From NCBI GenBank assembly GCA_024232355.1, contig JAAEPW010000951.1:1-35756 (forward strand): a DNA stretch of 35,756 bases, given 5' to 3'. The DNA is from Chloroflexota bacterium (lineage in GTDB: Bacteria; Chloroflexota; Anaerolineae; B4-G1). Below the pieces are notes generated by a model. That model saw only the letters and a list, made by a program, of their open reading frames with translations. It did not search any database and was not told the origin of the DNA. Each line of letters starts with the position of its first letter. Within the stretch, counting starts at the first letter, position 1. The position numbers and the translations under genes were made by a program. This document shows positions 2,661-33,685 of the stretch, one piece after another.

Positions 2661-2761
2661 GCTTATCTAACGAAATGTTAATATGCCTCTAATATATTTC
2701 TGATGCACGTAGGATATACTCGACGCAAAATAAAAAACAATCAGTATGTATGGAGGTAAAA

Positions 2762-4732
2762 ATGAGCAAGATTATTGGAATCGATCTAGGTACGACCAAT
2801 TCTGTGGTCTCTGTGATGGAAGGTGGCGAGCCGGTAGTGATCTCGACTGCTGAGGGCGGCCGGTTATGTCCGTCGGTTGTCGCGTTCACCAAGAGCGGCG
2901 AGGAGCCGGTGGGGCAGACCGCCCGGCGACAGGCAGTCGTCAACCCAGACAACACGGTCTTTTCCGTCAAGCGGCTGATGGGCCGGCGGTATGATGAGGC
3001 CGAGGTCGCCAAGGCGCGTGAGGTCTTGCCATACAAAATCGTGCAAGGCTCGGCAGGAGACGCGCGCGTCCATATTTCCCAGACTGACAGGGAATACACC
3101 CCGCAGGAAATCTCGGCCAAGGTGCTCCGCAAGCTCAAGCAGGACGCCGAGGCATACCTGGGCGAGACGGTCACCAAAGCCGTCATCACCGTGCCTGCTT
3201 ATTTCAACGACAGTCAACGCCAGGCGACCAAGGATGCGGGTCAGATCGCCGGGCTGGAAGTGCTGCGTATCATCAATGAGCCGACGGCAGCCAGCCTGGC
3301 CTACGGGCTGGACAAGGAAAAATCTGAAACCATCCTGGTATTTGACCTGGGCGGCGGCACCTTTGACGTCTCTATCCTCGACGTGGGCGAGGGCGTCGTC
3401 GAGGTGCAGGCGACCAGCGGCGACACCTTTTTGGGCGGCGACGACTGGGACCAGCGCATCGTGGATTACATTGCCAACGAGTTCAAAAAGGACCAGGGCA
3501 TTGATCTAAGAGGGGATCGCCAGGCGTTACAGCGGCTTAAAGAGGCAGGGGAAAAGGCCAAGATCGAACTATCCACTGTGATAGAGACCGAGATCAACTT
3601 ACCCTTTGTTACCGCCGACGCCTCTGGCCCCAAACATCTTCAGATAAAGCTGACGCGGGCCAAGCTGGAGCAATTGACCGACGACTTGGTGGAACGCTGC
3701 CGGGTTCCCTTTGAACAGGCGCTAAAGGACGCCAAACTAAAGGCCAGCGATCTGGACGAGGTAGTGTTGGTTGGTGGTGCGACCCGGATGCCAATGATCC
3801 AGAACCTAGTGCGCGGGCTGACCGACGGCAAGGAGCCTCACAAGGGCGTCAACCCCGACGAGGTTGTCGCGATTGGCGCGGCCATTCAGGCAGGCGTCTT
3901 GGGCGGCGAGGTCAAGGATGTGCTATTGCTCGACGTGACGCCACTGACACTGGGCATCGAGACCTTGGGCAGCGTGATGACACCCCTCATCGAGCGGAAC
4001 ACCACCATCCCGGTGCGCAAAGGCGAGACGTTCTCCACCGCCGCAGACGGGCAGACCGCGGTGACGGTCCACGTCTTGCAGGGCGAACGCCCGATAGCTG
4101 GCGACAACAACAGCCTGGGAATGTTCAACCTGGAGGGCATCCCGCCCGCCCCGCGCGGCATCCCGCAGATCGAGGTGACGTTTGACATTGACGCCAACGG
4201 CATTATGAACGTTTCGGCCAAGGACAAGGCCACCGGCAAAGAGCAGCAGATCACCATCACCGCCAGCACCAACCTGGACGAGAACGAGGTCGAACGATTG
4301 GTGCAAGAGGCCAAGCGAAACGAGGCCAGCGACCAGCAGCGCAAAGAGTTGATCGAGGCCCGCAACACGGCCGACACCTTGATCTACCAAATGGAAAAGA
4401 CGTTGCGCGACCTGGGCGACAAAGTATCCGCCGACGACCGCGGGCGCATTGAGCAAATCAGTGAGGACCTCAAGCAAGCCAAAGACGGAGACGACGCCGC
4501 TCGCATCCGACAGTTGATCGAGCAGTTGCAGCAGGCCAGCTATGCCATCGGGCAGCAGATGTACGCACAGCCGGACCAACAGGGAGCAGACGCCGGTGGA
4601 CCACAAACCGGATACAGTGCCGGGCCAGCCCCTGGATTTGACGCCGGACCACCTCCTGGACACGGAGCCGGGCCCACTCCTCCGCCCCCTGGTGGAGATG
4701 ACGTGGTCGAGGGCGAGTTTCAAGAGATGTAA
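2762..4732 (+). CDS. dnaK: Molecular chaperone DnaK (Hsp70)
   Basis: 656 residues, the normal DnaK length. The N-terminal ATPase domain begins [19 protein letters not shown] and includes the phosphate-binding GGGTFDVS near residue 196. The linker [14 protein letters not shown] leads to the substrate-binding domain (e.g. [15 protein letters not shown]), followed by the helical lid. A Gly/Pro-rich tail ends [13 protein letters not shown], a variant of the usual DAEFEE end. DnaK binds unfolded segments in an ATP cycle driven by DnaJ and GrpE, both encoded just downstream. I chose the ATG at 2762 because GGAGGT (2752-2757) sits correctly before it and overlaps the upstream in-frame ATG (2750). 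A TATACT -10 lies at 2715-2720 but I see no good -35. No CIRCE operator and no hrcA are present. Confidence 0.97.
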
Positions 4733-4753
4733 GACGTTGTTCAGAGCAATGAG

Positions 4754-4788
4754 AGCTGGTAGATTGGTGGCTCACCAATCTACCAGCT
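4754..4788. terminator. 35-bp perfect inverted repeat after dnaK (possible terminator)
   Basis: AGCTGGTAGATTGGTG pairs perfectly with its reverse complement around a 3-nt loop (GCT), 21 bp after the dnaK stop. There is no downstream T-run (the next bases are TGTAAACC), so if it terminates it does so weakly. It could instead stabilise the dnaK mRNA end or be a small palindromic repeat. Confidence 0.55.
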
Positions 4789-4804
4789 TGTAAACCGGAT
4801 CCAG

Positions 4805-4833
4805 TTCCTTAATCGCGCTTTTTATGGTACGAT
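4805..4833 (+). promoter_or_regulatory. Possible extended -10 promoter for the STAS-like gene
   Basis: TGG-TACGAT (4825-4833) has the TGn extension of an extended -10 element. A poor -35 (TTCCTT, 4805-4810) stands 17 bp upstream. It lies after the dnaK palindrome, so grpE and dnaJ may also be transcribed from here independently of dnaK. Confidence 0.35.
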
Positions 4834-4908
4834 ACCTGCACCGATTGTCATTCACACAAGTCAATTTGAACATCCGGCAGAATTTTAAAGAGCAGATTGA
4901 GGAGAAAA

Positions 4909-5280
4909 ATGAGCGAACGAGTGAAGGAAATCGTATACAAAGGGAAAACGATCGTGTACTGTGATCTGTCAAATACAAAAGGCGATGAAATCAAAACAAC
5001 AACTGACAGAGTCGATCAAATCGTCATTGACAAAGGCACCAGCGATCAATTGTTCTTGGTGAATATTAATGACTGTGTGATCGATCCCAAAGCCTTGCAG
5101 GTATTCAAAGAGAGCGCAAAACGGCTTCAACCGTATCTAAAAGGTTCGGCAAGTTTCGGATTATCTGGTTTAAAGGCCCTTTTTATGAATGCTATCAACA
5201 GATTTTCCGGCATGGGGATGACGGCGCATCCGAGTATGGAGGACGCCAAAGAGTATCTAGTCCTTCAAGTGAATAAATAA
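4909..5280 (+). CDS. Small STAS/SpoIIAA-like protein
   Basis: 123 residues; soluble, mixed alpha/beta. The pattern (YKGKTIVYCDLS near the start, a central LFLVNINDCVIDPKAL strand-turn, then an AKRLQPYLKGSASFGLSGLKALFMNAI helix region) resembles small STAS/SEC14-like (SpoIIAA-like) proteins found singly in many environmental bacteria. This is a fold-level guess; function unknown. GAGGAG (4899-4904) sits just before the ATG at 4909, which I prefer to the in-frame ATG at 4897. The gene is visibly AT-richer than dnaK and grpE on either side and interrupts the usual chaperone order, so it may have been inserted here. The grpE start follows after 29 bp. Confidence 0.6.
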   Translation: MSERVKEIVYKGKTIVYCDLSNTKGDEIKTTTDRVDQIVIDKGTSDQLFLVNINDCVIDPKALQVFKESAKRLQPYLKGSASFGLSGLKALFMNAINRFSGMGMTAHPSMEDAKEYLVLQVNK

Positions 5281-5309
5281 TTGATCTGTATAGGAGATGA
5301 GGTCAGAGG

Positions 5310-5900
5310 ATGAGCACAAGAGTACGAGTACCAATCCGCGTCAGACCGGCGTTCGTCTCGGAACCAGTATGGCAAGCCAGTGCGCCGGATGACGTCCAAG
5401 CTGCTCCGTCACTGACGGAGCGAGAACCGTTACCTCCGGTTTCCGTGCAGCCAGAACCAAAAGACGCAGACGAGGGAAACATGGAAATGTGGCGCGATCG
5501 AGCACAACGTCTTCAGGCCGAGATGGAAAATTTCCGCAAACGTCATCAGCGGCTGGCCGACGAGCGCGTCACCGCCGACCGCGAGCGGCTTTTGCGGGCC
5601 TTTTTGGACGTGGCCGACAATCTGGAACGGGCGCTGAATGCCGACGGAACGGATGTCGAGAGCCTCCGTCAAGGCATCAGTTTGACGCACCAGACGATGG
5701 AGCGACTCTTGAACCAAGAGGGAGCGGAACTCGTCCAGGCCAAAGGACAACCCTTTGACCCAACGTGGCACGAAGCGGTCAGCACCATCCCTCACCAAAA
5801 CGCCAATGTTGAACCGAGCACGGTCGCCGAGGTCGTGCAAGCGGGCTACCGCGTGGGAGATCGTCTCTTGCGCCCCGCTCGCGTCATCGTCGCCACCTAG
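5310..5900 (+). CDS. grpE: Nucleotide exchange factor GrpE
   Basis: 196 residues. After an acidic, low-complexity N-terminal stretch (about residues 1-55) comes the long dimerisation helix (WRDRAQRLQAEMENFRKRHQ onward) and the C-terminal beta-wing domain with the family signature: QPFDPTWHEAVSTI and VVQAGYRVGDRLLRPARVIVA. GrpE releases ADP from DnaK and resets the chaperone cycle. AGGAGATGAGG and a second AGAGG precede the ATG at 5310. dnaJ begins 17 bp after its stop. Confidence 0.95.
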   Translation: MSTRVRVPIRVRPAFVSEPVWQASAPDDVQAAPSLTEREPLPPVSVQPEPKDADEGNMEMWRDRAQRLQAEMENFRKRHQRLADERVTADRERLLRAFLDVADNLERALNADGTDVESLRQGISLTHQTMERLLNQEGAELVQAKGQPFDPTWHEAVSTIPHQNANVEPSTVAEVVQAGYRVGDRLLRPARVIVAT

Positions 5901-5917
5901 CACACGAGATATATCCG

Positions 5918-6865
5918 ATGGAATACAGAGACTATTACCAAACACTCGGCGTGAGCAAAGACGCCAACGAAAAAGATATCAAACGGGCCTTTCGCAAGCT
6001 CGCCCGCGAGTATCACCCGGACGTCAATCCCGGTGACGCCAAGGCCGAGGAGCATTTCAAGGCGATCAACGAAGCTCACGAGGTGCTCTCCGACTCGGAA
6101 AAGCGGGCCAAGTATGATCAATTGGGCTCCGCCTGGCGAGATTGGGATCGGCAAGGTGGCCGTCCCGGCGACTTTAATTGGGGGCAGTGGACGGCCGGTG
6201 CTCCCGGCGGTCAGCGATTCCGTTATACTAGGGCAGAAGACCTGGGAGACCTGTTCGGTGGTAACAGCCCGTTCTCTGATTTCTTTAGCCAGATCTTTGG
6301 CGGAACGGGAGGCGGTTTTCGGCAACAAATCCGGCCCCAACGCGGGCAGGACTATGAACAAGCGGTCGAAATCAGCCTGCAGGAAGCGTACCAGGGCACC
6401 ACCCGTATCATGCAGAAGGATGGCCGCCGGCTGGAAGTCAAGATTCCGCCCGGAGCACGAACCGGTACCCGCGTCCGTATGACGGGCGAAGGCGGGCCAG
6501 GCGCTGCTGGCGGGACAACCGGCAACCTGTACCTGCGCGTCCAAGTATTGATCGACCCGCAGTTCGAGCGAAAGGACGACGATGTACACGTCGCTGCATC
6601 GGTGGATCTCTACACAGCCATCCTCGGCGGCAAGATTCGAATTCCGACGTTGAGCGGTTTTGTGATGCTCACCATCCCGGCTGGCACACAGAATGGCCGC
6701 ACCTTTCGCCTCCGGGGCAAGGGGCTGCCTCGCTTGAAGCAACCCGACCAGCACGGTGACCTGTACGCCAAAATCGATGTGCAATTACCGACGAGCCTGA
6801 CTTTACGCCAGCGAGAACTGTTTGAAGAATTGCAACGCATCTCGCGCAAACCTGATCCAACCTGA
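5918..6865 (+). CDS. DnaJ-type co-chaperone lacking the zinc finger (CbpA-like)
   Basis: 315 residues. The J-domain (1-70) has the HPD tripeptide at 33-35 that stimulates DnaK ATPase. A Gly/Phe-rich linker follows (about 80-145, e.g. DLFGGNSPFSDFFSQIFGG), then two beta-sandwich substrate-binding domains (about 150-300: QDYEQAVEISLQEAYQGT, VKIPPGARTGTRVRM, VMLTIPAGTQNGRTFRLRGK). The CxxCxGxG zinc-binding repeats of classical DnaJ are absent, so this is a type II Hsp40 (CbpA/DnaJ2-like). It still sits in the dnaK-grpE operon and is probably the main partner of this DnaK, unless another dnaJ exists elsewhere. No clear Shine-Dalgarno precedes the ATG at 5918, so translation may be coupled to grpE. 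Confidence 0.93.
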   Translation: MEYRDYYQTLGVSKDANEKDIKRAFRKLAREYHPDVNPGDAKAEEHFKAINEAHEVLSDSEKRAKYDQLGSAWRDWDRQGGRPGDFNWGQWTAGAPGGQRFRYTRAEDLGDLFGGNSPFSDFFSQIFGGTGGGFRQQIRPQRGQDYEQAVEISLQEAYQGTTRIMQKDGRRLEVKIPPGARTGTRVRMTGEGGPGAAGGTTGNLYLRVQVLIDPQFERKDDDVHVAASVDLYTAILGGKIRIPTLSGFVMLTIPAGTQNGRTFRLRGKGLPRLKQPDQHGDLYAKIDVQLPTSLTLRQRELFEELQRISRKPDPT

Positions 6866-8075: not shown

Positions 8076-11000
8076 GTGAACACTCAAACCCCTATTACAG
8101 ATTCACCTACCCGTAACCGCAGACGCTGGATCGTCCCTGCCCTCTATGCCCTCATCATCTTGTGCGTCATCGCCGGATTTGGAGCGTTGCAATGGTTTGC
8201 CACCTTGCCAAAGCGTGTGGATGACCAACAGACCATCGTTGTGGGACCCACTCGCTTTGCGCCCGATAGCGACGCTTCGGTGCGCGTGGTGGTCCAGGAT
8301 TTTGGAGCCGGAAAGCCCATCGTCAATGCCCACGTCAAGGTAAGCCTCAAACCAGCCAGTGGGCGAGCGATTCTGCTCTTTGAAGGGCAGACCGACGAAA
8401 CCGGCAGCCTGCCGGTCAGCTTTCACGTGCTCGCCGACGCGCCCGCCGAGGCGCAACTGGTAGTCGAAACCGAGTCGGACGTGGGAAACGACCGGGTAGA
8501 GCATCCAGTGACCATCGAGCGCGAGTATCGCTTGCTGCTGACCAGCGACAAACCCCTCTATCAGCCCAGCCAGACCATCCACATGCGCGCTTTGGCCCTC
8601 AGCACCTTTGATCTGACCCCCGCCCGAGGCGCGACCGTCAACTTTTTGGTCGAGGACGCCAAGGGCAACAAGGTCTTTCGCCAGAGCGTGGTCGCCTCTG
8701 ATTTTGGTATCGCGGCCGCTGATTTTATCCTGGCCGACATGGTCAACCAGGGCAACTACAAACTCGGTGTCTCTATAGGCAATACAACCTCGGAAAAAAC
8801 GGTAGAGGTGCGTCCCTACGTGCTGCCCAAGTTTGGCGTCAACGTCTCCACCAACCGCAGTTTCTATCTGCCCGGCGAGCGGGTCGAAGGTGTGGTGCAG
8901 GCCGACTATTTTTTCGGCAAGCCCGTGGCCGAGGGGCAGGTGCAGATCGTTGGCAGTGTGTGGGACGTCGAGCGCACGGTGCTCATCGATCTGCTCGGCG
9001 AGACCAACGAGAACGGCACCTACGAGTTTGGCTTTGACATGCCCGAATACTTTGCCGGGTCAGGACTGGAATTGGGGCAGGCTCAGTTTGCGCTGGAGGT
9101 AACCGTCATAGACCAGACCGATCACCCGGAACAGATCAGCCAGGTGCTACCCATCGCAACCCAGCCATTGGTCATCGAGGCGGTCGCCGAGAGCGGGACG
9201 CTCAAGCCAGGCGTCGAGAACATTGTCTATATCCTCACCTCTTACCCCGACGGTCAGCCCGCGCCGACGACGTTACAGATTCGCGTGGACGGCGGCAGTG
9301 TGACCGAACTTGCCACCGGCGAGTTTGGTCTAGCCGAGTTTACCTTTACACCACAAACCGGGGCACATCCCAATCTCGACATCATTGCCCAAGACGAGAC
9401 CGGACTCTCAGCCAAGCGACAAATTGTCTTTGAGGCCGAGTACGGCAGCGACAGCGTGCTCCTACGCGCCGACCGGGCTGCCTACGTCGTCGGCGAGACG
9501 ATGCACTTGGTTGCCTTTACGCCGGTCGAGTTTGGCGACATTTACCTGGACATCGTCAAGACCGGGCAGACCCTCTCTACCCGCTCGACCCGTGTAGAGG
9601 GCGGTAAGGCCGAGTTCGCCGTCGATGTGAGCGCCGACCTGTACGGCACACTGGAACTCCACGCCTACAAAGTGCTGCTCGATGGCACCATCGTCCGCGA
9701 CACGCGGCTGGTGGTGGTCGATGCGCCCAACGATCTGGACATTGCCATTACGGCCGATGCCGACCTACGGTCGGTTGAGACCTATCTGCCGGGCGAGACA
9801 GCAACGCTCGACTTTCAGACCAGCAATGCCGGACAAGGCGGCGGGGTACAGACAGCCTTAGGATTGGCCATCGTGGACGAATCGGTCTTTGCCCTGCAAC
9901 GTCAAGACCCTGGTTTTGCCAAGCTCTACTTTATGCTGGAACAGGAATTGATGGAGCCCTTTTACCAGATCAAGAGCTTTGAACTGCCCGCCGCCATCCC
10001 CCCCGACGAGGAACAAGTCCGATTGGCCCAAGATGATGCGGCAAAAGCAACCTGGGCCGGAGCACCTGTCTTGGCCGCTCCCCGCCCCGTCAACTCGCGC
10101 CAGGAAAAGATGGCCAAGGTGCGCGAGAGACAGCAAAAGGGATTCGAGCGCATCAGCCAGGCATCCGTCGTCGGACTGATCCTTCTCCCGATAGTGCTGT
10201 GGGTTGTGGTCATCGCCACCTTGCGAGGTTCAGGCATCATAAAGCGCTCACTCAAACAGTTGGCCATCGTCTCTGGAGTGATCCTGCTGATGGGCGGATG
10301 CCTGGTCGGCTGGTTCATCGCACTGACAGAGGCTTTCTACCTCTTTGATCCGGAAATCGTATTCATTCTGCTAGCCGCCGTCTTTGGTCTGGCAATGTTG
10401 ATCTTTGTCGGCTATGCTTGGATCAAACGTGACTCGGCAGCCCGGTGGTTCACCCTGCTGACTCTGGTATGGGCGGCTCTGTGTTTCTTGTTGGTACAAG
10501 CCTCGGACAAAGCGGGAGGGCCACCAGAAGTATTGGCCATTTTCGCGCTTTTAGCCCTCGTGCTAGTCCCCGGTGCATATCTGCTCTTGGGACAGGCCCG
10601 CTGGGTCCAGGAACGTCGTTTTGCTGGCGTATTGATGACTGTCGTGGGAACGCTGACGGCGCTGCCCGCGATGGCCATCCCCCTGCTTGTTCTCGTTCTC
10701 CTCGCTTCTGGCGGTATGATGATGGGCGCGATGGCCCCTTCCCCTCCGATGGATTTAGAGATGTCAACCCCCGTGACACAAGAAATAGAGATGCCGCCAG
10801 TGGATGAGGGCGAGGGGGCACGATCCGATGAACAAGCGGCCGGAGATGCCCCACGCCTGCGCCAATACTTTCCCGAAACCCTCTATTGGGCCCCCGAGGT
10901 CCTCACCGATGAGGACGGTTTCGCATCCCTCGAAATCCCAATGGCCGACTCGATCACCACCTGGCGGCTGACGGCACTGGCTTCGTCGCAGGATGGACGG

Positions 11001-12962
11001 CTGGGTTTTAGCACACGCGGTATTCGGGTCTTTCAGGATTTCTTTGTGGACGTTGACCTGCCCGTCTCGCTGACGCAGGGGGACGAGATCAGCATCCCTA
11101 TCGGCGTCTTTAACTATTTGCCCGAGGCCCAGGAAGTGCGGCTGGTGGTCGAGCCGGAATCCTGGTTCGAGCTGCTGGGCGAGGAAGAACAGACGCTGAC
11201 CATCGCCTCCAACGACATCGAGGTGGTCTACTTTCCCATCCGCGTCGTCAAGTTTGGACGGCGAGGCTTCCAGGTGACGGCCTGGGGCGAGCAAATGAGT
11301 GACGCCATCCGCCGCGAGGTCAACGTCGTGCCCGATGGCAAAGAGTTCCGCCTGACAGAGAGCGACTGGCTGCGTGAGGAAGCGGATTTACAGGATCCAT
11401 TAGAGATCGAACTCACCATCCCACCGGAGGCCGTGCCAGAGACGCCCTACGTCGAGGTCAAAATCTATCCGGGGGTGATGGCCCAGGTGGTAGAGGGATT
11501 AGAGAAAATACTCAGACTGCCTCACGGCTGATTTGAACAAACTACGTCGGCGACGTACCCGAATGTTCTTGTTCTAAATTACTTGCAGACGACCGGCCAA
11601 GCTAACCCCGAGTTACAGATGCAGGCCGAAAAATACGTGGGCACCGGCTACCAGCGCTTGCTGACCTTTGAGGTGAACGGAGGCGGATTCTCCCTGATGG
11701 GCAACCCACCGGCGCGGGTCTTTCTCACCGCCTACGGGCTGCTCGAGTTCAACGACATGTCCAAGGTCTACCCGGTGGACGAGGCCGTCATCGAGCGGGC
11801 CGTGGAATGGCTGTTCAGCCAGCAGCAATCCGATGGCACGTGGCTGGTCGGCGATTACCGCGCTGGACAGGGGGCGCTGGGCGCGACGTCTTACGTCGTG
11901 TGGGCGCTGACCGAGGCCGGTTACGAGGACACTTCTCAGGTGGGGCAAGCGGTCTCCTACATTCACGAGTTTGCGCTGCAAGAGGAAGACCCATACAACC
12001 TGGCGCTGGCGGCCTACGCGCTGGCGGCCTACGATCCCGAAGGCTCGATGACAAAAGCCGTGCTCGATCGGCTCTACGAGATGCGCGTTCAAGACGGGGA
12101 TACCGTCTATTGGCCCATCGGTGAAGCCTCGTTTATGGGCGCGACGGGTGAAAGCGGTAGCCTGGAGACAACGGCACTGGCAGCCTACGCTTTTATGAAA
12201 GCCAACGCTCATCCCGACGTGATAGGCGGCACACTGGCCTACCTGATCCAGGGCAAAGATAGTTGGGGCACCTGGGGCACCACCCAGGCGACCATCCTCA
12301 CCCTCAAAGCCCTGTTGCTCGCAACAGAGCAAGCCGGAGCGGCTGAAGGCCCATCCATAGTACACGTGAGTTTGAACAAGGAGCAGACGCAGCAAATCAC
12401 AATTGACGAGACCAACGCGGATGTGGTGCATCTCGTCACCTTTGACCGCGGTTTTTCACCCTCTGGAGCCAACCGAGTGCAAATACAGGTGGAAGGAGGC
12501 GGCAACTTGATGTACCAAGTCGCCACCCGTTACTATTTGCCGTGGGATCAGGTGCCACCCACAACCAATATGAAGGAACTGATCTCCATCGACGTAAACT
12601 ATGATCGCACGGCGTTGGCCGTCAACGACGAGGTGACGGTGGACGTGAGCGCAAGGCTCAACGAGGAGGGCGTAGTCAGGATGGCACTGATCGACCTGGG
12701 TGTGCCCCCTGGCTTTACCGTGCTGACCGAGGACCTGAGCCGGTTGGTGGAGCAAGGCGTCATCGCCCGCTACGAGCTGACGGGGCGGCAGATCATCATC
12801 TACCTGGAAGATTTCTCGTCCGGGTTCCCGCTCCGGTTTAACTACCGGCTGCGGGCGCGCTTCCCGATGCGGGCGCAGACACCGCCCTCCAGCGCGTACG
12901 ATTACTACAATCCGAGTGATTTAACGGTGCAGCCACCGCTAGAGGTGACGGTGAGCGAGTAA
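8076..12962 (+). CDS. Alpha-2-macroglobulin family protein with in-frame TGA at the thioester cysteine (candidate selenoprotein)
   Basis: Read through the TGA at 11529-11531, this gene encodes 1,628 residues. A membrane anchor (about 15-42, after a basic RNRRR) is followed by macroglobulin domains, including the MG2 signature TSDKPLYQPSQTIHMRALAL (from 156). A block of about six helices (about 698-885) interrupts the protein. Then comes the A2M core (LYWAPEVLTDEDGFASLEIP, from 936), the thioester domain starting LRLPHG-[TGA]-FEQTTSATYPNV with the TGA at residue 1152, and a C-terminal receptor-type domain ending near the stop. In the family the residue after PHG/PYG is the Cys whose thiol forms the internal thioester with the Gln of 'CxEQ'; here that codon is TGA. 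Such proteins trap proteases at the cell surface. The GTG start has AAAGGAG at 8062-8068. Downstream of the TGA there is no start with a ribosome binding site and no signal peptide, so the C-terminal part is not a separate gene. Either UGA is decoded (as selenocysteine) or the gene is dead by one mutation. Confidence 0.85.
11529..11531 (+). other. In-frame TGA replacing the thioester Cys codon (candidate selenocysteine codon)
   Basis: Codons on both sides are in the same frame and conserved: CTG CCT CAC GGC [TGA] TTT GAA CAA ACT ACG. This aligns TGA with the reactive Cys of the macroglobulin GCxEQ thioester motif. No other stop occurs in 1,628 codons. Cys codons (TGC, TGT) become TGA only by a transversion. 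Sec/Cys exchange at a reactive thiol is the hallmark by which selenoproteins are recognised. I see no selA, selB, selD or tRNA-Sec in this window, so the decoding machinery must be sought elsewhere in the genome. Confidence 0.6.
11532..11568 (+). promoter_or_regulatory. Candidate bacterial SECIS hairpin
   Basis: Directly after the TGA there are 11 nt (TTTGAACAAAC), then a perfect 6-bp stem TACGTC/GACGTA (11543-11548 with 11552-11557) closed by a GGC loop. A lower 5-bp stem GAACA/TGTTC (11535-11539 with 11564-11568) brackets it across an asymmetric internal loop. Published bacterial SECIS rules ask for a short apical loop with a G in its first two positions, an upper stem of at least 4 bp, and about 16-37 nt from UGA to loop; here that distance is 17 nt. 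In E. coli fdhF the SelB-binding mini-hairpin also begins 11 nt after UGA. The E. coli bulged U is not evident. A 6-bp hairpin can arise by chance in coding DNA. Confidence 0.5.
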
Positions 12963-20928: not shown

Positions 20929-21792
20929 CTACTTGGTAGTCACGGCAGCCACACCTAACGCTCGCGGTCCTACATGAGTGCCGATGATGGTGGTGACTGA
21001 GACGGTTAGTAACGGTTCAGGTAAAGACAAGCGCGTACAGCGCTCGGTCAGTCGGTGACGGAATGCTTCTAAATCTGGAGCGTATGTATGGAGAAATGCC
21101 AGCCGCTCCAATGCCCCCAAAGTGCACGTCAGATCTACCAATTGATCAATAGCCCGGCGCCTCGTCCGCGTTCGTCCCACATCTTTGACCTGACCAAGAA
21201 GCACCTCTATGATCGGTTTGATGCGCAAAATTTGGGCCGTTTTTGCCCGTGCCCAACTCACCCGACCGCTGCGGCGCATATATTCTAGCGTGTCAAGCAT
21301 TGCGTAGACGTGCACGCGAGGTTTCATCTCCTCGATCAGAGTCAGTATCTCTTGCACACTCTTACCTTCTGCGGCTGCTTCTGCGGCTGCAATGACTAGC
21401 CACCCACTCCCTATCGAGATCTGTTCCGAGTCTACAACGTGTACTTTTAACTCTGGCACATCTTGTGCGCCCAGGCTCGCGACGTTGTACATGCCACTCA
21501 GTTTAGTTGAAATCAAAATAGCGATCACTTGATCCGTCTCGCCAGCCAGTTTGCGGTACGCAGTGCTAAAGTCGTGGGCTGGCGGCACAGCAGTAGTTGG
21601 CAGATCAGGCATTGTGGGCAATTGGGAATAGAATTCTTCTCGGCCCAGCCCCTGGGAAGAAGGGCTGGATTCGTCCCGATAGCTGCGGTCGCCAACCTGA
21701 ACGTAGGCCGGCACGACAGTGATACCAAGTCGCTCCGCCACGTGAGCAGGTACGTCGGACATGCTATCGGTGAGAATACGCACTTTATTCAT
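20929..21792 (-). CDS. DegV family fatty-acid-binding protein (FakB-like, copy 1)
   Basis: 287 residues. DegV fold: VRILTDSMSDVPAHVAERLGI at the start, LPTTAVPPAHDFSTAYRKL, then ILISTKLSGMYNVASLGAQD, and the C-terminal GTHVGPRALGV carrying the His used by FakB for the fatty-acid carboxylate. In Gram-positives FakB presents a bound fatty acid to the kinase FakA, which is encoded two genes upstream. The ATG at 21792 overlaps the stop of copy 2 (TGATG); a GTG at 21795 is an alternative. recG follows after 19 bp. Confidence 0.88.
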   Translation of the reverse strand: MNKVRILTDSMSDVPAHVAERLGITVVPAYVQVGDRSYRDESSPSSQGLGREEFYSQLPTMPDLPTTAVPPAHDFSTAYRKLAGETDQVIAILISTKLSGMYNVASLGAQDVPELKVHVVDSEQISIGSGWLVIAAAEAAAEGKSVQEILTLIEEMKPRVHVYAMLDTLEYMRRSGRVSWARAKTAQILRIKPIIEVLLGQVKDVGRTRTRRRAIDQLVDLTCTLGALERLAFLHTYAPDLEAFRHRLTERCTRLSLPEPLLTVSVTTIIGTHVGPRALGVAAVTTK

Positions 21793-22703
21793 CACAATAT
21801 CAGTTTTCGCCCCTGCCCCTCGTATACGATCAACCCCATTCCATCAGGCCCAATGTGAGAGGCTAGCAGCGGGCCATAGAGCCAAATGGGGAGCTCGTGT
21901 CCCTTTACGATAGATTCCAATCGTTCGCGCAATATTTTCGTCTGATCGGTGGGATAGGGAGTGCTCTGTAAAATAGCGATCTGTTCGACACTGGAAAACT
22001 CGCTGGCAAATTCGATCAGCTTGTCTATGGCCCGTTCACGACTGCGAACTTTTTCCATCGGGATGATCCGGCCTTCTTCGATTGCCAGAAAGGGCCTAAT
22101 GTTCAACATACTTCCTAGAATAGCCTGAGCTGGGCTGATGAGCTTGCTGTACTCCAAATAGTCCATTGTATCGGTGATGAGCACGATATAGATTCGGGGA
22201 ACCGTTCCCCGAATCTGACGTAGAATCTCACCCAAAGGAACAGACTGGTTTGCTAACTGGGCTGCTTGTTCGACTAGAATACTCAACCCCAGAGAAATGG
22301 TCTCCGAGTCCAATACTACAATATCACAACGGCCCAGGAATTCGCTGGCGGCTTTTTCAGCCTCGCGACAGACGAGACTAAGACTAGCCGAAGAGTGGAG
22401 TGAAATGATCTGATTGGTTTGACGTGTTAATTGGCTGTATATCTTTCGAAACTGCTCAGATGTCGGGCCTACAATGCTGGGGTGAACCCGATTGCTCCCC
22501 ATACGAAGCAATAACTCTTCATGATCTACTTCTGTGCTGTCTTGATAAACGTCTATGGTCTCTGAATTGGATGAACTTGATCGGACTTTTGATCCATTAT
22601 CATCAATACAAACCGTCAGGGGAACGATGGTAATACCAAGCTGCTCGGCAACATCTGGTGTAATGGTTGTTGCACTATCAGTGACAATATGGACTTGAGA
22701 CAC
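21792..22703 (-). CDS. DegV family fatty-acid-binding protein (FakB-like, copy 2)
   Basis: 303 residues. VHIVTDSATTITPDVAEQLGITIVPL is a typical DegV start. PSIVGPTSEQFRKIYSQL and SLHSSASLSLVCREAEKA correspond to the fatty-acid pocket strands, and ASHIGPDGMGL to the C-terminal His region. A Ser-rich insertion (RSSSSNSET) follows the first beta-strand pair. The pocket loop is SASLSLVCREA where most DegV proteins have SxxLSGTYxSA, so the two neighbours may prefer different fatty acids, as FakB1 and FakB2 do. GTG start with AGGAGGT five bases upstream. Confidence 0.87.
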   Translation of the reverse strand: MSQVHIVTDSATTITPDVAEQLGITIVPLTVCIDDNGSKVRSSSSNSETIDVYQDSTEVDHEELLLRMGSNRVHPSIVGPTSEQFRKIYSQLTRQTNQIISLHSSASLSLVCREAEKAASEFLGRCDIVVLDSETISLGLSILVEQAAQLANQSVPLGEILRQIRGTVPRIYIVLITDTMDYLEYSKLISPAQAILGSMLNIRPFLAIEEGRIIPMEKVRSRERAIDKLIEFASEFSSVEQIAILQSTPYPTDQTKILRERLESIVKGHELPIWLYGPLLASHIGPDGMGLIVYEGQGRKLIL

Positions 22704-22769
22704 GGGACCTCCTAGTTGGAAAATTGGTAAATTGATGGCTTGGTGGATTGATAATCAGTACCCATTGTT

Positions 22770-24434
22770 TTACTCCACCGAAAGAAAATAATGATAATGA
22801 GGTTGCCCTCCAGCAACGACCTCTATCTCAAGATCAGGCCAGTCTTGCTCCAAGAGATCGGCCAGCGCGTTAGCGTCGTCTTCGCCGACAGATTCGCCAT
22901 AGTACAACGTGATGATCTCACGGTCGGCTGCCTCCATCTTTTTCACAAGCGTTCGCACAACCTGATCAACCGTTGTGCCCGATGCCTTTAGTTCGCCATC
23001 GTGCAGGCCGATGATCTGCCCATCAGTAACTTGCATACCGTTGATAGTCGTCGAACGAACCGCAGTCGTGACCTCACCGGTCTCGACATCTTGCATTACA
23101 TCTGACATCATGGATACATTGGTGTCAAAATCAGCTTGAGAATTAATGGCCAATAAGGCCGCAATGCCCTGTGGAATGGAGCGGCTGGGGATAACGGCCA
23201 TCGGTTTGTCACAGAGATCGCGCGCTTGCTCGGCGGCCAGAATCACGTTCTTGTTGTTGGGCAGCAAAATCGCCCGTTCTACGGGCAGACTCTCAACGGC
23301 CTCCAACAAATCTTGCGTGCTGGGATTCATCGTCTGTCCACCGTACACGATACCACTTGCCCCCAGGCTTTGAAACACACTAGCCAGCCCGTCACCCATC
23401 ACAACAGCCACAACGCCGAATCCGATTTCTTGAAAGGGCTGGGCTAATGAAGGAGACGACGCTTCACGCTCGATGATAAAATCTTGATACTGGGCCTGCA
23501 TATCCTCGATCACGACGTCACGTAGCGATCCCAAGCTGGCTCCATAGCTGATGGGGATGCCTGGGTCATCCACATGGACGTGTACTTTGATCGTTGTGGA
23601 TTCGCCCACGACGAGCGGGCAATCACCCATCGCCGTGATTTTATGACGGATGTCGTCCACCACCATATCTTGACCAACGATGAGGAACTGCACATCGTAA
23701 CCGTATCCAATCTCGCCGGGGTCCAACCCTGTAGAAATGAGATCCACGGCCTCGGTCAGTTCCATGTCCTCGGCGATGGGTTCCCCCCGCATATGGCGCA
23801 ACATCCCCTCCAGGATAACAAATAGTCCCTGACCACCAGCATCGACTACGCCTGCTTCGGCAAGCACTGGTAGCAGCGAGGGTGTAAGCTTGACGGCCTC
23901 GCGGGCGGCATGCACCATGTGTTCCAGAACGTGCAATAGGTTGTCCGTCTCTTTCACTGTCCGAGTTGCCTCGTCAGCGACAGCACGGGAGACAGTAAGA
24001 ATCGTGCCCTCAACCGGTTTGACTACTCCCTTGTAGGCGGTCGCGCTTGCTTCCTGGCAAGCAACGGCCAAGTCTTGGGCATAATAAACATCTTTTCCAT
24101 CCAAGCTGCGCGCAAAACCCCGCCAGATCTGGGAGAGGATGACGCCCGAGTTGCCACGCGCGCCCATAAGCGCGCCGTGAGCCATTTGGCGGGCTATTTG
24201 TCCCACATTGCGCTCTGGCGAGTCCTCAATCTCTGCCCAAGCAGACTGCATCGTCAGCACCATGTTGGTTCCTGTATCGCCATCGGGGACAGGGTAGACG
24301 TTGAGTGTGTTGATAAGAGTCTGATGATGTCGCAGCCAGGATAGGGCGGCTTTGACCAGTTGTTTAAAGTCCTGACCGTCTGTGGTCAGGCGTGTGGTCT
24401 CTTGCATAATTGTTGAAGCTATCTTGTTTGTCAC
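22770..24434 (-). CDS. fakA: Fatty-acid kinase catalytic subunit FakA (DAK2 domain, YloV-like)
   Basis: About 554 residues. The N-terminal DAK2 domain has the Mg-ATP motif NVYPVPDGDTGTNM and GARGNSGVILSQIWRGFA; the middle and C-terminal YloV-type domains include NNKNVILAAEQA and an end near HYHYFLSVE. FakA phosphorylates fatty acids held by FakB; the acyl-phosphate then enters phospholipid synthesis. Both putative FakB partners follow directly. The longest frame starts with TTG at 24452, overlapping the asp23 stop. I favour GTG at 24434 because GAGGGGG stands before it. ATG 24407 is a third option. Confidence 0.9.
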   Translation of the reverse strand: MTNKIASTIMQETTRLTTDGQDFKQLVKAALSWLRHHQTLINTLNVYPVPDGDTGTNMVLTMQSAWAEIEDSPERNVGQIARQMAHGALMGARGNSGVILSQIWRGFARSLDGKDVYYAQDLAVACQEASATAYKGVVKPVEGTILTVSRAVADEATRTVKETDNLLHVLEHMVHAAREAVKLTPSLLPVLAEAGVVDAGGQGLFVILEGMLRHMRGEPIAEDMELTEAVDLISTGLDPGEIGYGYDVQFLIVGQDMVVDDIRHKITAMGDCPLVVGESTTIKVHVHVDDPGIPISYGASLGSLRDVVIEDMQAQYQDFIIEREASSPSLAQPFQEIGFGVVAVVMGDGLASVFQSLGASGIVYGGQTMNPSTQDLLEAVESLPVERAILLPNNKNVILAAEQARDLCDKPMAVIPSRSIPQGIAALLAINSQADFDTNVSMMSDVMQDVETGEVTTAVRSTTINGMQVTDGQIIGLHDGELKASGTTVDQVVRTLVKKMEAADREIITLYYGESVGEDDANALADLLEQDWPDLEIEVVAGGQPHYHYFLSVE

Positions 24435-24448
24435 CCTGTTGATCCCCC

Positions 24449-24805
24449 TCAATCGGTGTCGCTGACGCGCAGCCCTGCGACGTGTACGTTGACCTCGGCG
24501 ACGGGTAGGCCCAACGTTCGTTCTACACTAAATTTCACTACATTCATCACACTGCGAGCTACAGACGTGATGCGAGTGCCGTATTCGATAATCACGTACA
24601 CGTCAATGATAATCCGCTCATCCTCGATTTGCACGTTGATTCCGCGTTTGCTGTCTCGGGAAAGGACGTTGGCGATGCCGGTAGCCAGGTCCTTGGGCGC
24701 AGTTCCAACGACCCCGTAACAACTCAATATGGCTTTATGCGTAATACTGGCAATGGCTACGGGCGAAACTTCGATGCGCCCCAGACTAGATTCTGCTTCT
24801 GACAT
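24449..24805 (-). CDS. Asp23/Gls24 family protein (copy 2)
   Basis: 118 residues. ASITHKAILSCYGVVGTAPKD, INVQIEDERIIIDVYVIIEYGTRI and VKFSVERTLGLPVAEVNVHVAGL follow the Asp23 pattern. In Gram-positives an Asp23-like gene commonly sits directly before fakA, exactly as here, next to rpmB on the other strand. I chose ATG 24805 because GGAGGA sits just before it; a GTG at 24817 would include this ribosome binding site. It heads the fakA-fakB-fakB-recG-coaD operon. Confidence 0.88.
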   Translation of the reverse strand: MSEAESSLGRIEVSPVAIASITHKAILSCYGVVGTAPKDLATGIANVLSRDSKRGINVQIEDERIIIDVYVIIEYGTRITSVARSVMNVVKFSVERTLGLPVAEVNVHVAGLRVSDTD

Positions 24806-29608: not shown

Positions 29609-30847
29609 ATGACTGACTACTCGACGCTCCGCATTGATCCCGACCGCTTTTTGGCACGCTTTGAGGCGCTGGCGAAAATTGGGGCCACGCCCGGCGGCGG
29701 CGTCCATCGTCCGGCGTTCAGCGACGCGCATCTCAGTGCCCGGCGCTGGTTTCTCGAACAAGCAGAGCAAATTGGCCTGGAAACCCAAGTGGATGGTGCT
29801 GGCAATCACTCGGCGATCTTGCGCTGCGGTCCGCCCGATGGTCGGACCCTGCTCCTGGGGTCTCACCTGGATTCCGTTCCGTACGGTGGGCGTTTTGACG
29901 GACCCTTGGGCGTGCTTGCTGCCCTGGAGGTGATCCAGATGGTGCAAGAGCAAGGGATCAGGCTGAACACTCACCTGGAGGTGATCGATTTCACCGACGA
30001 AGAGGGGTATCTGATGGGCCTGATGGGCAGCCAGGCGTTGGCCGGGTTGCTTCAGGAGGAGCACTTGCAACACCCCGATTGCGACCGGGACGAGTTCGAG
30101 CGGATACTCGGCTACGTCGGGTTGAGCGATGGCACCATACTCTCCGCGGCCCGAGATTCCACAGAGATCGCCGGGTATCTAGAGCTCCACATCGAGCAAG
30201 GGACGCGACTGATCGAAATGGGCGCGCAGATCGGCGTCGTGACGGGTATCGTCGGCATCCGGTGCTTTAGGGTAAAGTTCATCGGGCGGGCTGATCATTC
30301 TGGAACGACGCCGATGGACAGACGATTAGACGCGGCTCAGGGCGCTTGCGCATTCAGTCTGGCAGCCAGAGAGATAGTGATGGCGGATTTTTCGGGATGC
30401 GTGACCAACGTCGGGAATATGAAATTTGAGCCGGGGGCCTCGAATATCGTCCCAGAGGTGGTGACGGTCGCACTCGAGTTCCGATCAGGCGATGAGGCTA
30501 TGCTCGACGCAATGCAAGCTGCCTTGCTGGAACGCGCTTTGGCAAAAGCGCAGCGCTTTGGCCTCGAACTGGAAACAGAGGCTTTTGAGAACGTCGTTCC
30601 CGCCCACACGGACGAAAGATTTCGGCAGACGCTGTCCGGTGCATGCCAAACGCTTGGCCTGGAGCACGCGTTAATGTCGTCGGGAGCGGGCCACGACGCT
30701 CAATCCCTAGCCCACATCTGCCCGATCGGAATGGTTTTCGTGCCCTCGGTGAGCGGCTTTAGCCACTCGTCGCGAGAGTTTACACAGTGGGAGGATTGCG
30801 TGAACGGCGCGAATGTGCTGTTACAGACCGTGTTGACCATTCTCTAA
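29609..30847 (+). CDS. N-carbamoyl-L-amino acid hydrolase / allantoate amidohydrolase-type M20 enzyme
   Basis: 412 residues, normal for the family. Metal and substrate motifs: GSHLDSV (His86, Asp88), GGRFDGPLGV (Asp97), FTDEEG (Glu131, Glu132), LELHIEQG (His194) and the C-terminal GAGHDAQ and GFSHSSREF. The lid domain (about 210-325) carries DHSGTTPM. These di-metal enzymes hydrolyse N-carbamoyl amino acids, allantoate or beta-ureidopropionate. With a hydantoinase beside it, an N-carbamoyl-L-amino acid is the best guess. It starts 3 bp after the racemase. Confidence 0.92.
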   Translation: MTDYSTLRIDPDRFLARFEALAKIGATPGGGVHRPAFSDAHLSARRWFLEQAEQIGLETQVDGAGNHSAILRCGPPDGRTLLLGSHLDSVPYGGRFDGPLGVLAALEVIQMVQEQGIRLNTHLEVIDFTDEEGYLMGLMGSQALAGLLQEEHLQHPDCDRDEFERILGYVGLSDGTILSAARDSTEIAGYLELHIEQGTRLIEMGAQIGVVTGIVGIRCFRVKFIGRADHSGTTPMDRRLDAAQGACAFSLAAREIVMADFSGCVTNVGNMKFEPGASNIVPEVVTVALEFRSGDEAMLDAMQAALLERALAKAQRFGLELETEAFENVVPAHTDERFRQTLSGACQTLGLEHALMSSGAGHDAQSLAHICPIGMVFVPSVSGFSHSSREFTQWEDCVNGANVLLQTVLTIL

Positions 30848-30868
30848 TCTCTCGCAAGGAAAATCAAC

Positions 30869-32269
30869 ATGACAAAACCAGACAACATACTCATCAAAGG
30901 TGGAACGGTTGTCCTTGGTCAAACGGTGTCCCCGCAAGATGTGCTCATCCAAGGCGAACGGATCGCTGCCATCGGCAACCTTTCCGATTGCAAGGCTGAC
31001 GTTGAAATAGACGCATCGGGCCTGCTGGTGCTGCCCGGCGCTATCGACACCCACGTCCATCTGAACGACTCTTTTATGGGCACGGTCAGTGTGCACGATT
31101 ACTATTCTGGCACGCGGGCCGCCGCCTACGGAGGCGTGACGACGATCATCGACTTTTGCAACCAGGTCCCCGGAGGTTCCTTGCTCCGGTGCATCAGCGA
31201 CAAAAAAACCGAGGCCGAGGGGATGGCCCTGGTCGATTGGGGCGTCCATCCGGTGATCACCAATCTGATGCCCCAGACGCTGGCCGAGATCTCGCAGGTG
31301 GTCGAGTTGGGCGCGCCGACCATCAAGTGTTACATGACCTATCGTGAGGATGGGTTGATGATGGAGATCGACGACTTGAAGCAGATACTCGGTGCTCTGC
31401 GCGAATCTGGCGGTATGTTGATGGTGCATGCCGAGGACAATGACATGATCGAGGCCAACATCCCCCGCCTGATCTCGGAAGGCAAGACCCAGGCGCATTA
31501 CCACGCGGTCAGCAAACCGCCGGAGGTCGAGGACAAGGCCATCCGTGACTGCATCGACGTGGTGCGCGAGGTCGGTGGTCGATTGTTCGTCGTTCATTTG
31601 GCCAGCGCCAACGGGATAGAGATGATCGCCCGCGCCCGCGCCGAGGGGTTGGACGTCGCCGCCGAGACTTGCATTCACTATCTCGTCTTTACCGACGAGA
31701 TTCTCAAGCGGGACGATGGCATCAAGTGGATCTGCTCGCCGCCGCTCAGGAACCAAGCGATTCAGGATCGATTGTGGGATGGCTTGCGAGATGGTCGCAT
31801 CGCACTCGTGACCACCGACGATGCTGCCTTTTCGTGGGAGGCCAAACTGTACGGCGCTGATCGCTTTGATATCTGCCCGAATGGACTGCCAGGCGTTGAG
31901 GTCCGCCTCAGTTTGCTCTATTCGGAAGGCGTCGCCAAAGGCCGCATCTCGCTGCCCCGCCTCGTCGAATTGGTCGCGACGGCACCCGCTCGCTTGTTTG
32001 GCCTGGCTCCCCAAAAAGGCAGTCTGACCCCCGGCGCTGATGCCGACATTGTCCTTTTCGATCCGGCGGAAAAGTGGATAATGGCACAGGAAACGCTCCA
32101 CATGGCCGCCGATTGGTCCGGTTACGACGGGATCGAGGTGACGGGCAGAGTCAAAAAGGTCTTTTCCCGGGGCGAACTGATCATCGACGGCGAACAATGT
32201 CTGGCCGAAAAGGGTCGGGGACGCTACTTGCATCGTAAACTTGATCCAGACATTCGCCTCTCGATTTGA
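30869..32269 (+). CDS. Dihydropyrimidinase / hydantoinase
   Basis: 466 residues, cyclic amidohydrolase. Metal ligands: His62 and His64 (DTHVHL), Lys153 to be carbamylated (TIKCYMTY), His187 (MVHAED), His243 (VVHLAS) and Asp317 (TTDDAAF). In most D-hydantoinases the Asp is followed by His (S-D-H); here it is Asp-Asp, so the substrate side of the pocket may differ. It opens the hydantoin or dihydropyrimidine ring to an N-carbamoyl (ureido) acid. AAGGA precedes the ATG at 30869. Confidence 0.92.
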   Translation: MTKPDNILIKGGTVVLGQTVSPQDVLIQGERIAAIGNLSDCKADVEIDASGLLVLPGAIDTHVHLNDSFMGTVSVHDYYSGTRAAAYGGVTTIIDFCNQVPGGSLLRCISDKKTEAEGMALVDWGVHPVITNLMPQTLAEISQVVELGAPTIKCYMTYREDGLMMEIDDLKQILGALRESGGMLMVHAEDNDMIEANIPRLISEGKTQAHYHAVSKPPEVEDKAIRDCIDVVREVGGRLFVVHLASANGIEMIARARAEGLDVAAETCIHYLVFTDEILKRDDGIKWICSPPLRNQAIQDRLWDGLRDGRIALVTTDDAAFSWEAKLYGADRFDICPNGLPGVEVRLSLLYSEGVAKGRISLPRLVELVATAPARLFGLAPQKGSLTPGADADIVLFDPAEKWIMAQETLHMAADWSGYDGIEVTGRVKKVFSRGELIIDGEQCLAEKGRGRYLHRKLDPDIRLSI

Positions 32270-32308
32270 TTTACCGTCGGACAGTTTTCTTTTTCAATGG
32301 AGGTACAT

Positions 32309-33685
32309 GTGAGTAGCAAGAAACACGATCGAATCTATTCCGGCGCCACGCCGGAGGAGATTGCCACGGATCTAGCCCCTCTCGTTGATTTTCAAGAGCA
32401 GGGAGTGTCGCTGGACGAGTTATCCAGCCTGATCGACGAGCATCTGATCCCCCACCTGGTCAAGTACGATCATCCCGGTTTTCATTCGCTGTACAATTTC
32501 TTCCTGGAAGAAGGGGCTGAATTGGGAGCCCGGGTCGCGTTGCCGTACAACCAGGGAGTGACCAACTATCAGGTCTCGCCGGGGGCGGTGATGTTGGAGG
32601 AACTCTGCGGCAAAGCCCTGTGCCGCCTCTTTGGATTCCCACCTGGGTCTGACGCGACCTTTGCGTACTCGGGCACCTATGCCAATCAGCAAGCCCTGTA
32701 CATGGCCCTCCATTGGAAAGCAGAACAGCAAGGGGTTGATTTTGCGGAAAAGGGATTACTGGGTTTTCGGGACCCAAGTCGCTTGACCGTCGTCTGTTCT
32801 GAAGAAGCGCACTTTTCGTTGAGACAGGCATTGCGCGTGATGGGACTGGGCGAGCAGAGCCTCAAGACCGTGGCGGTGGACGGAAACCGACGGATGGGCG
32901 TCGATGCGTTGCAAGAGACACTCGAGGCATTGCGCAAGACGCACGATGTATTTTGCGTCGTCCCCACGGCTGGCACATCCTCCACGGGTTCGGTCGACCC
33001 GGTCGCGCCGGTTGTTGATCTATGCCAGAACATGGAAATTTGGGTGCACGTGGACGCGGCGTACGGAATGATATACGGCCTGCTCCCTGAAAAATCCGCC
33101 TTGTTCTCCGGGGCAGAACGAGCAGATTCTGTCTGCTGGGACCCACACAAACAGTTTGGCGTGCCCATCCCCAGTTCCCTGCTATTCGCTCGCCGGGGGG
33201 AGGATCTGTACCGGATGGCCATTTACGGCGAATACTTTAACCGTCCGGGCGAATCGGTGCCCAACCCCGGGCTCAAGTCATTGCCATCTACCCGGCCTTT
33301 TTCGGCGCTGCCGTTGGTCGCTTCTATCCGCCATCAAGGGATGGAGCGGCTGCGGCAGAGGTTACGGGCACCGTTCGTCGCCATTCGTACTGCCATTGAT
33401 TACGTCAACAGCGTGGAGGACATCGAATTGATGCACGAACCCGATTTGGGCATATTCTGCATCCGCCTCGTCCCCCCGGGTTTTCCAGTGGACGAGTTGG
33501 ATCAATTGCAGAAATATATCTATGACAGGGTTATGGCAGAGGGACGACGCTCCGTCTCGATGACGAGCATAGACGGCAGAACGGCCTTGCGCTTTTTGGT
33601 TATCTCGTTGTCTGTAACGGGCGACGCATTGTTAGAGACGTTCGTCTATTTGCGGGCGCTGGCACGCGATTACGCAGAAACTTGA
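32309..33685 (+). CDS. PLP-dependent amino acid decarboxylase (group II)
   Basis: 458 residues. The Schiff-base Lys281 is in WDPHKQFGVP, the PLP-ring Asp249 in HVDAAYG, and the stacking His168 in SEEAHFS. YSGTYANQQAL is the phosphate-binding region. Group II enzymes decarboxylate Glu, Asp, Tyr, Trp, DOPA or 2,4-diaminobutyrate; some act in lyase or oxidase reactions. I cannot tell the substrate. In this operon it would convert the amino acid released by the carbamoylase into an amine. GTG at 32309 is chosen because GGAGGT (32299-32304) sits just before it and overlaps the in-frame ATG at 32297. Confidence 0.9.
   Translation: MSSKKHDRIYSGATPEEIATDLAPLVDFQEQGVSLDELSSLIDEHLIPHLVKYDHPGFHSLYNFFLEEGAELGARVALPYNQGVTNYQVSPGAVMLEELCGKALCRLFGFPPGSDATFAYSGTYANQQALYMALHWKAEQQGVDFAEKGLLGFRDPSRLTVVCSEEAHFSLRQALRVMGLGEQSLKTVAVDGNRRMGVDALQETLEALRKTHDVFCVVPTAGTSSTGSVDPVAPVVDLCQNMEIWVHVDAAYGMIYGLLPEKSALFSGAERADSVCWDPHKQFGVPIPSSLLFARRGEDLYRMAIYGEYFNRPGESVPNPGLKSLPSTRPFSALPLVASIRHQGMERLRQRLRAPFVAIRTAIDYVNSVEDIELMHEPDLGIFCIRLVPPGFPVDELDQLQKYIYDRVMAEGRRSVSMTSIDGRTALRFLVISLSVTGDALLETFVYLRALARDYAET

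Follow-up and report, generated by a model that had tools for sequence, protein, structure and literature searches.

A probable selenocysteine form of the alpha-2-macroglobulin thioester site in Anaerolineae

Anaerolineae very likely possess a selenoprotein form of alpha-2-macroglobulin (A2M) that is conserved and has apparently gone unrecognised. The window analysed here, a whole stretch of 35,756 nucleotides from a Chloroflexota bacterium (contig JAAEPW010000951.1), carries an A2M-family gene with an in-frame TGA at the position of the thioester cysteine. Sequence comparison indicates that the organism almost certainly reads this UGA as selenocysteine (Sec), and the reading is very likely because the same UGA and the same hairpin are conserved in related genomes. 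In the mechanism proposed, which as a whole we regard as highly probable, a SECIS hairpin just 3' of the UGA would direct Sec insertion. A selenoester would join Sec 1152 to Gln 1155 in place of the Cys-Gln thioester, and the anchored A2M, with its thioester domain (TED) outside the cell, would trap proteases when they cleave the bait region. A first-pass annotation of this DNA had proposed that the UGA encodes Sec, with a dead gene as the main alternative, and had named homologues at this codon, Sec machinery and dN/dS past the TGA as points to check. Its proposal is supported by the conserved TGA, by a hairpin limited to TGA copies and by repeated exchange of Sec and Cys.

The gene, its domains and the candidate RNA element are listed in Table 1. 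As the first-pass annotation had described, the frame is open for 1,628 codons except for one TGA, its sole internal stop, and this TGA falls exactly on the thioester Cys (P-H-G-[UGA]-F-E-Q; translated flanks LRLPHG-stop-FEQTTSATYP). The Pfam domains follow the order of the A2M family: MG2, MG3, bait region, A2M, TED and receptor-binding domain. The first four lie upstream of the stop, TED spans it and the receptor-binding domain is downstream. When the post-stop part was searched alone, TED was still found (E 2.2e-37), together with the receptor-binding domain. Third-position G+C is 0.71 upstream and 0.75 downstream of the TGA.

Table 1. Coordinates of the A2M-family gene and of the features assigned within it
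Feature	Position	Strand	Details
A2M-family gene, membrane-anchored (predicted)	8076..12962	+	1,628 codons, UGA as Sec at codon 1152, TAA end
N-terminal transmembrane anchor, predicted	8130..8186	+	residues 19-37; hydropathy
MG2 (PF01835)	8532..8810	+	residues 153-245; Pfam
Bait-region domain (PF07703)	9462..9896	+	residues 463-607; Pfam
Hydrophobic insert, about six predicted transmembrane segments	10143..10742	+	residues 690-889; hydropathy
A2M domain (PF00207)	10878..11147	+	residues 935-1024; Pfam
TED (PF07678)	11475..12314	+	residues 1134-1413; Pfam E 4.6e-43 read through
In-frame TGA at thioester Cys position	11529..11531	+	U-F-E-Q, Gln = residue 1155; very likely Sec codon
SECIS-like element	11535..11568	+	imperfect lower helix 11535-11539 with 11564-11568
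Upper hairpin TACGTC-GGC-GACGTA	11543..11557	+	apical loop GGC 11549-11551, 17 nt past UGA
Receptor-binding domain (PF07677)	12678..12926	+	residues 1535-1617; Pfam

The C-x-E-Q thioester motif itself is altered, UGA standing for Cys with E and Q retained. This motif is usual in the A2M family and does not define it, complement C5 being described as lacking it (PMC9156758). A motif that lacks Cys but keeps E-Q places the gene as a Sec variant of the A2M family. The AlphaFold model (mean pLDDT 69) matches A2M folds overall; its thioester segment is below 50, and no claim is therefore made about the geometry of the site. The strongly hydrophobic insert lies between the bait-region domain and the A2M domain. 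To our knowledge, classical A2M has no comparable transmembrane insert. Both the insert and the N-terminal anchor are present in all eight homologues inspected (P0001 and seven other proteins). The arginines before the first segment and the even number of segments in the insert predict that TED lies outside the cell.

Orthologues were compared at codon 1152 in 49 copies, made up of the window, 22 TGA copies from 21 genomes and 26 Cys copies. TGA is present in 23/49 and Cys in 26/49, and neither TAA nor TAG occurs, so the homologue check returned TGA relatives as well as Cys relatives. The 23 TGA copies comprise 20 class genomes, two copies of G002 and the window. When GTDB species genomes were scanned, the four copies that reach across the site (L001, L002, L003, L005) all had TGA. 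TGA at the same codon, as the sole stop of the matched stretch, was seen in 15 copies from 14 genomes. A TGA-motif pattern was run against 396 genomes, a sample defined by the class of G001 (CP070811.1), and matched 17 places in 16 genomes. Twelve are A2M; the other five (L025, L027, L028, L037, L038) are not and were dropped. The backward control pattern gave no match in the table for the same 396 genomes. A protein search of 396 class genomes found an orthologue in 46 (E 7.4e-123 or better): the matched stretch is interrupted exactly once in 20 of these, in every case by TGA, and is free of stops in 26. Weaker A2M matches in that search were stop-free among the matches listed. A strict hairpin pattern run on 400 genomes of the phylum, a sample that partly overlaps the class, matched once, in G001, with no carrier outside the class in the sample.

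On contig JAAEPZ010000557.1 the TGA occurs in at least two A2M genes, a complete one (L002:4001-9913) and a second whose C-terminal part lies at the opposite end of the contig (L005:2-1489). A further N-terminal A2M part adjoins the complete gene and stops short of the TGA site.

Protein databases carry the trace of the stop. The 1,151-residue ORF was searched against 5.8 billion proteins, and the best 120 of 1,309 matches consist of the window's own protein, P0001, P0002 and 117 others. Among those 117 records, 116 stop at P-x-G just before the UGA site and one is labelled partial. P0001 and P0002, close relatives, have Cys and no break at the site. P0192, apparently the NCBI entry from the CP070811.1 chromosome, ends at 1,139 residues. 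At least 116 database proteins, P0192 among them, thus seem to be cut off at the Sec codon. A second search could return only proteins that pass the TGA site; in the best 120 of its 4,793 matches, 119 fit the motif pattern, all with Cys, and the remaining one, P0009, also has Cys before F-E-Q.

The hairpin 3' of the UGA was compared with published bSECIS limits, given as an upper stem of 4-16 bp, a loop of 3-9 nt, a UGA-to-loop distance of 16-37 nt, a G within the first two loop positions that is often followed by G or U, and a folding energy of -7.5 kcal/mol or lower (PMC13188914). All 23 TGA copies fall within the structural limits, with stems of 6-7 bp, loops of GGC, GGT, GTC or GTT and a spacing of 17 nt. 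The core ACGTC-N3-GACGT, starting 12 nt past the stop, is present in 23/23 TGA copies and 0/26 Cys copies (Fisher p 1.7e-14, kinship ignored). The energy limit is reached by 21/23 TGA copies, two failing, versus 7/26 Cys copies, each count taking the best of several stretches of up to 44 nt; the window hairpin has -8.3 kcal/mol on 38 nt. Rfam gave nothing useful at 11400-11700, with one chance match (E 1.4).

Codon choice and base pairing were compared in TGA and Cys copies. First, wherever TGA copies agree in residue at codons 5, 6, 7, 8 and 11 past the UGA, they also agree in codon (1.00), while sharing in Cys copies at these codons is 0.18-0.59. At codons 13-60, read without gaps, sharing in TGA copies averages 0.49 and peaks at 0.83. 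Second, both bases of the outer pair (alignment pair 15-29) differ in 8 of the 22 distinct rows, which have G-U or A-U for U-A, and the pair is broken in none. The total of two-sided changes is 8 cells against 3.0 in shuffles, and none of 500 shuffles reaches 8. The same pairs in Cys copies have 45% of cells paired, equal to shuffles. Against the SECIS reading, five of the seven pairs of the upper helix are invariant and one shows a two-sided change, a number (1) as in shuffles; the lower helix is imperfect, one pair failing in 11/22 rows. Third, synonymous shuffles give a mean z of -1.00 in TGA copies versus +0.27 in Cys copies. Also against the reading, just 5/23 TGA copies reach p 0.05 singly, because the residues alone favour part of the hairpin. 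Finally, 24/26 Cys copies have Ser where the hairpin has ACG (Thr). Since the hairpin needs ACG, one TED residue seems to have been imposed by the RNA element. In the copies compared, the hairpin and its synonymous sites are retained in the UGA form only.

Granted that Sec is inserted, its role in the protein has to be considered. Many known selenoproteins are thiol oxidoreductase homologues or carry redox motifs (PMC13188914), and a Sec that serves as a redox centre or sensor in TED, with no selenoester formed, might also fit the missing acyl-transfer histidine loop of the window copy. This is unlikely, however, since 48/48 fetched copies, Sec and Cys forms alike, retain E-Q in the thioester motif, and the window copy has no Cys codon 3' of the UGA and hence no downstream UxxC partner. 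The Sec-Gln bond probably forms as the Cys-Gln bond does in the Cys homologues, given that the E-Q of the motif and the entire domain are retained.

In A2M, a protease that cuts the bait region exposes the C-x-E-Q thioester and may itself become linked to it (PMC4498604, PMC9156758), and in A2ML1, C3 and C4B a nearby His is reported to take the acyl group first (PMC9156758). The corresponding alignment column was located through GLVHE in G016, where the His aligns with the first Asn of the human A2M sequence LLNN; the column has His in 30/38 Cys rows versus 7/23 Sec rows. In the window copy the acyl-transfer His loop (11844-11885) is shortened and has no His. Loss of the His tracks clade as much as Sec, which makes it a lead rather than a result.

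Selenoesters are generally more reactive to amines than thioesters, and selenoester-assisted aminolysis is used in synthesis. A better leaving group may make the acyl-transfer His dispensable; the idea that the selenoester transfers its acyl group faster, and might thereby offset the lost histidine loop in the window copy, is somewhat doubtful. Protease trapping as the use of the protein is suggested by family knowledge only. For the Anaerolineae lineage it seems fairly likely that there are A2M traps in which a Sec-Gln selenoester acts as acyl donor, in acyl transfer and not redox chemistry, and in which the hairpin lies within the TED codons.

The UGA could instead act mainly as a selenium-dependent switch between a 1,151-residue A2M that lacks TED and the full protein made by read-through. 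The truncated product would still have its anchor and hydrophobic insert along with the MG and bait-region domains, and read-through at SECIS elements is as a rule not complete. Selection is, however, equally strong on the two sides of the UGA. The Nei-Gojobori median dN/dS in TGA copies is 0.277 before and 0.283 after the UGA (191/210 pairs, the other 19 having no finite value; G328 and G002b were omitted because of short upstream parts), and Cys copies have a median of 0.280 after the site (307/325 pairs). Because dS is high these values are rough, but relaxation is not seen after the UGA. The dN/dS check thus gave purifying selection downstream of the TGA equal to that upstream. Together with the finding that 26/46 orthologues simply have Cys, this indicates that the full-length form is kept by selection, so that a switch as the main role is quite improbable, although some truncated product may be made.

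Sec and Cys forms interchange within one family in these sequences. On a 61-row tree, accounting for the Sec/Cys label takes 8 changes, of which starred branches force at least 5, and P0005 (Cys) groups with G277 (Sec) with support 100/99. For the 12 P rows, Cys was read from protein records rather than from DNA.

Sec insertion further calls for its machinery, and the counts given here cover the 21 genomes of TGA relatives, not the window's own genome. A clear tRNA-Sec was found in 18/21 (3/3, 8/11 and 7 others): ARAGORN reported tRNA-SeC(tca) in 11 of the 14 TGA genomes tested, and the remaining 7 have a tRNA-Sec match at E < 1e-12 (hand-read). In G015, G180 and G328 the best match is a tRNA-Ser; these are assemblies of hundreds of contigs, with SelA present. 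SelA is above cut-off in 19/21, being absent in G101 and G304. SelB is above cut-off in 19/21 (2/3, 10/11, 7/7), and in G015 it appears as pieces below cut-off. G001, which has SelA and tRNA-Sec, shows a 42-residue SelB-like stretch (L039:16773-16898) near its tRNA-Sec gene, either an assembly frameshift or a gene remnant. No genome lacks tRNA-Sec, SelA and SelB together, and not every genome has all three. Most genomes sampled with the UGA form therefore have Sec machinery, which answers the machinery check for tRNA-Sec, SelA and SelB in the relatives. The window holds no tRNA genes.

Co-occurrence of tRNA-Sec with the TGA is modest, because tRNA-Sec is common in the class anyway. It is present in 17/20 TGA versus 15/26 Cys orthologue genomes (hand-read counts; one-sided p 0.045, two-sided 0.059). 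Across the class, 334/396 genomes are over the Rfam cut-off, which a tRNA-Ser (L009) can also pass, and about 294/396 have tRNA-Sec at E < 1e-10 by hand count.

These data also bear on a reading of the UGA as another residue, either Cys through a UGA-reading tRNA-Cys or the product of wide reassignment. The site requires Cys or Sec on chemical grounds, and some bacteria have tRNA-Cys variants that read UGA. Against it, tRNA-SeC(tca), SelA and SelB occur in most TGA genomes, and the SECIS-like hairpin is found in UGA copies only, whereas a plain UGA-reading tRNA would not need one. Wide reassignment is rejected because UGA is the ordinary stop of DnaJ, RecG, RlmN and other genes in the window and the terminal stop of four TGA-bearing A2M genes (G001, G277, G101, G032). 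Such a reading is therefore very improbable.

The dead gene, whether by nonsense mutation, pseudogene formation or a sequencing error that makes the TGA unreal, has a negligible probability and is refuted: under table 11 TGA ordinarily means stop, database gene calls end at this one, neighbouring genes of the window use TGA, and the closest site-spanning proteins have Cys (in a search restricted to proteins passing the site), but 22 further copies in 21 genomes share this TGA, and no second stop interrupts their matched stretches, 116 of 119 relatives among the matches listed end at the same residue, dN/dS is equal on either side, and the hairpin with its synonymous sites is conserved in TGA copies only.

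The surroundings of the gene were also recorded. A dnaK, grpE and dnaJ cluster (2750-6865) lies directly upstream, and tatC is next after the A2M gene, on the opposite strand. On the minus strand, two DegV proteins adjoin a YloV/DAK2 protein (20929-24452), a set that resembles fatty acid kinase. A likely operon at 29609-33685 encodes an allantoate/hydantoin amidohydrolase, a D-hydantoinase (dihydropyrimidinase) and a PLP decarboxylase-like protein, the last of which is below all cut-offs.

The first-pass annotation knew of no described selenoprotein in the A2M family, and Table 1 of the 2026 catalogue of 119 prokaryotic selenoprotein families likewise names no macroglobulin and no thioester protein (PMC13188914). 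The word "macroglobulin" is absent from the text of that paper and, in term searches, of PMC12013277, PMC2398784 and PMC1794560. Full-text searches of the main text of openly available journal articles returned nothing relevant.

The nearest known relatives are the Cys-type A2M orthologues of Anaerolineae (P0001, P0002, G016). Like the window protein they have the P-x-G-x-F-E-Q site and the same domains, with up to 76% identity over residues 900-1628. They differ in that the codon is one for Cys and the hairpin is missing, as seen in the DNA of 26 copies, and most keep the acyl-transfer His. Close Sec/Cys pairs such as G277/P0005 and G003/P0001 make a direct comparison of the two chemistries possible. 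Among solved structures, human CD109 and A2M are the best sequence matches (E 2e-71 and 5.9e-61), and A2ML1, CD109 and C3 come at the top of a fold search with the predicted window model; human CD109, A2M and A2ML1 however have the thioester Cys in C-G-E-Q. The A2M proteins of E. coli and Salmonella (YfhM, PDB 4rtd; 4u48) are also bacterial and membrane-anchored, with a C-L-E-Q thioester (PMC4498604). They differ in having Cys and in being called lipoproteins, and their match to the window is far weaker (E 3.7e-9 for 4u48, about 1.6e-6 for YfhM). Known bSECIS selenoproteins (119 families) likewise have UGA at a reactive Cys, Cys homologues, and a hairpin with a G opening the loop 16-37 nt past the UGA (PMC13188914). 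If the selenoester forms, the Anaerolineae protein would be a natural covalent trap with a selenium leaving group. If the Sec reading is true, it would add a new sort of selenoprotein family to a catalogue in which many families are homologous to thiol oxidoreductases or carry redox motifs (PMC13188914).
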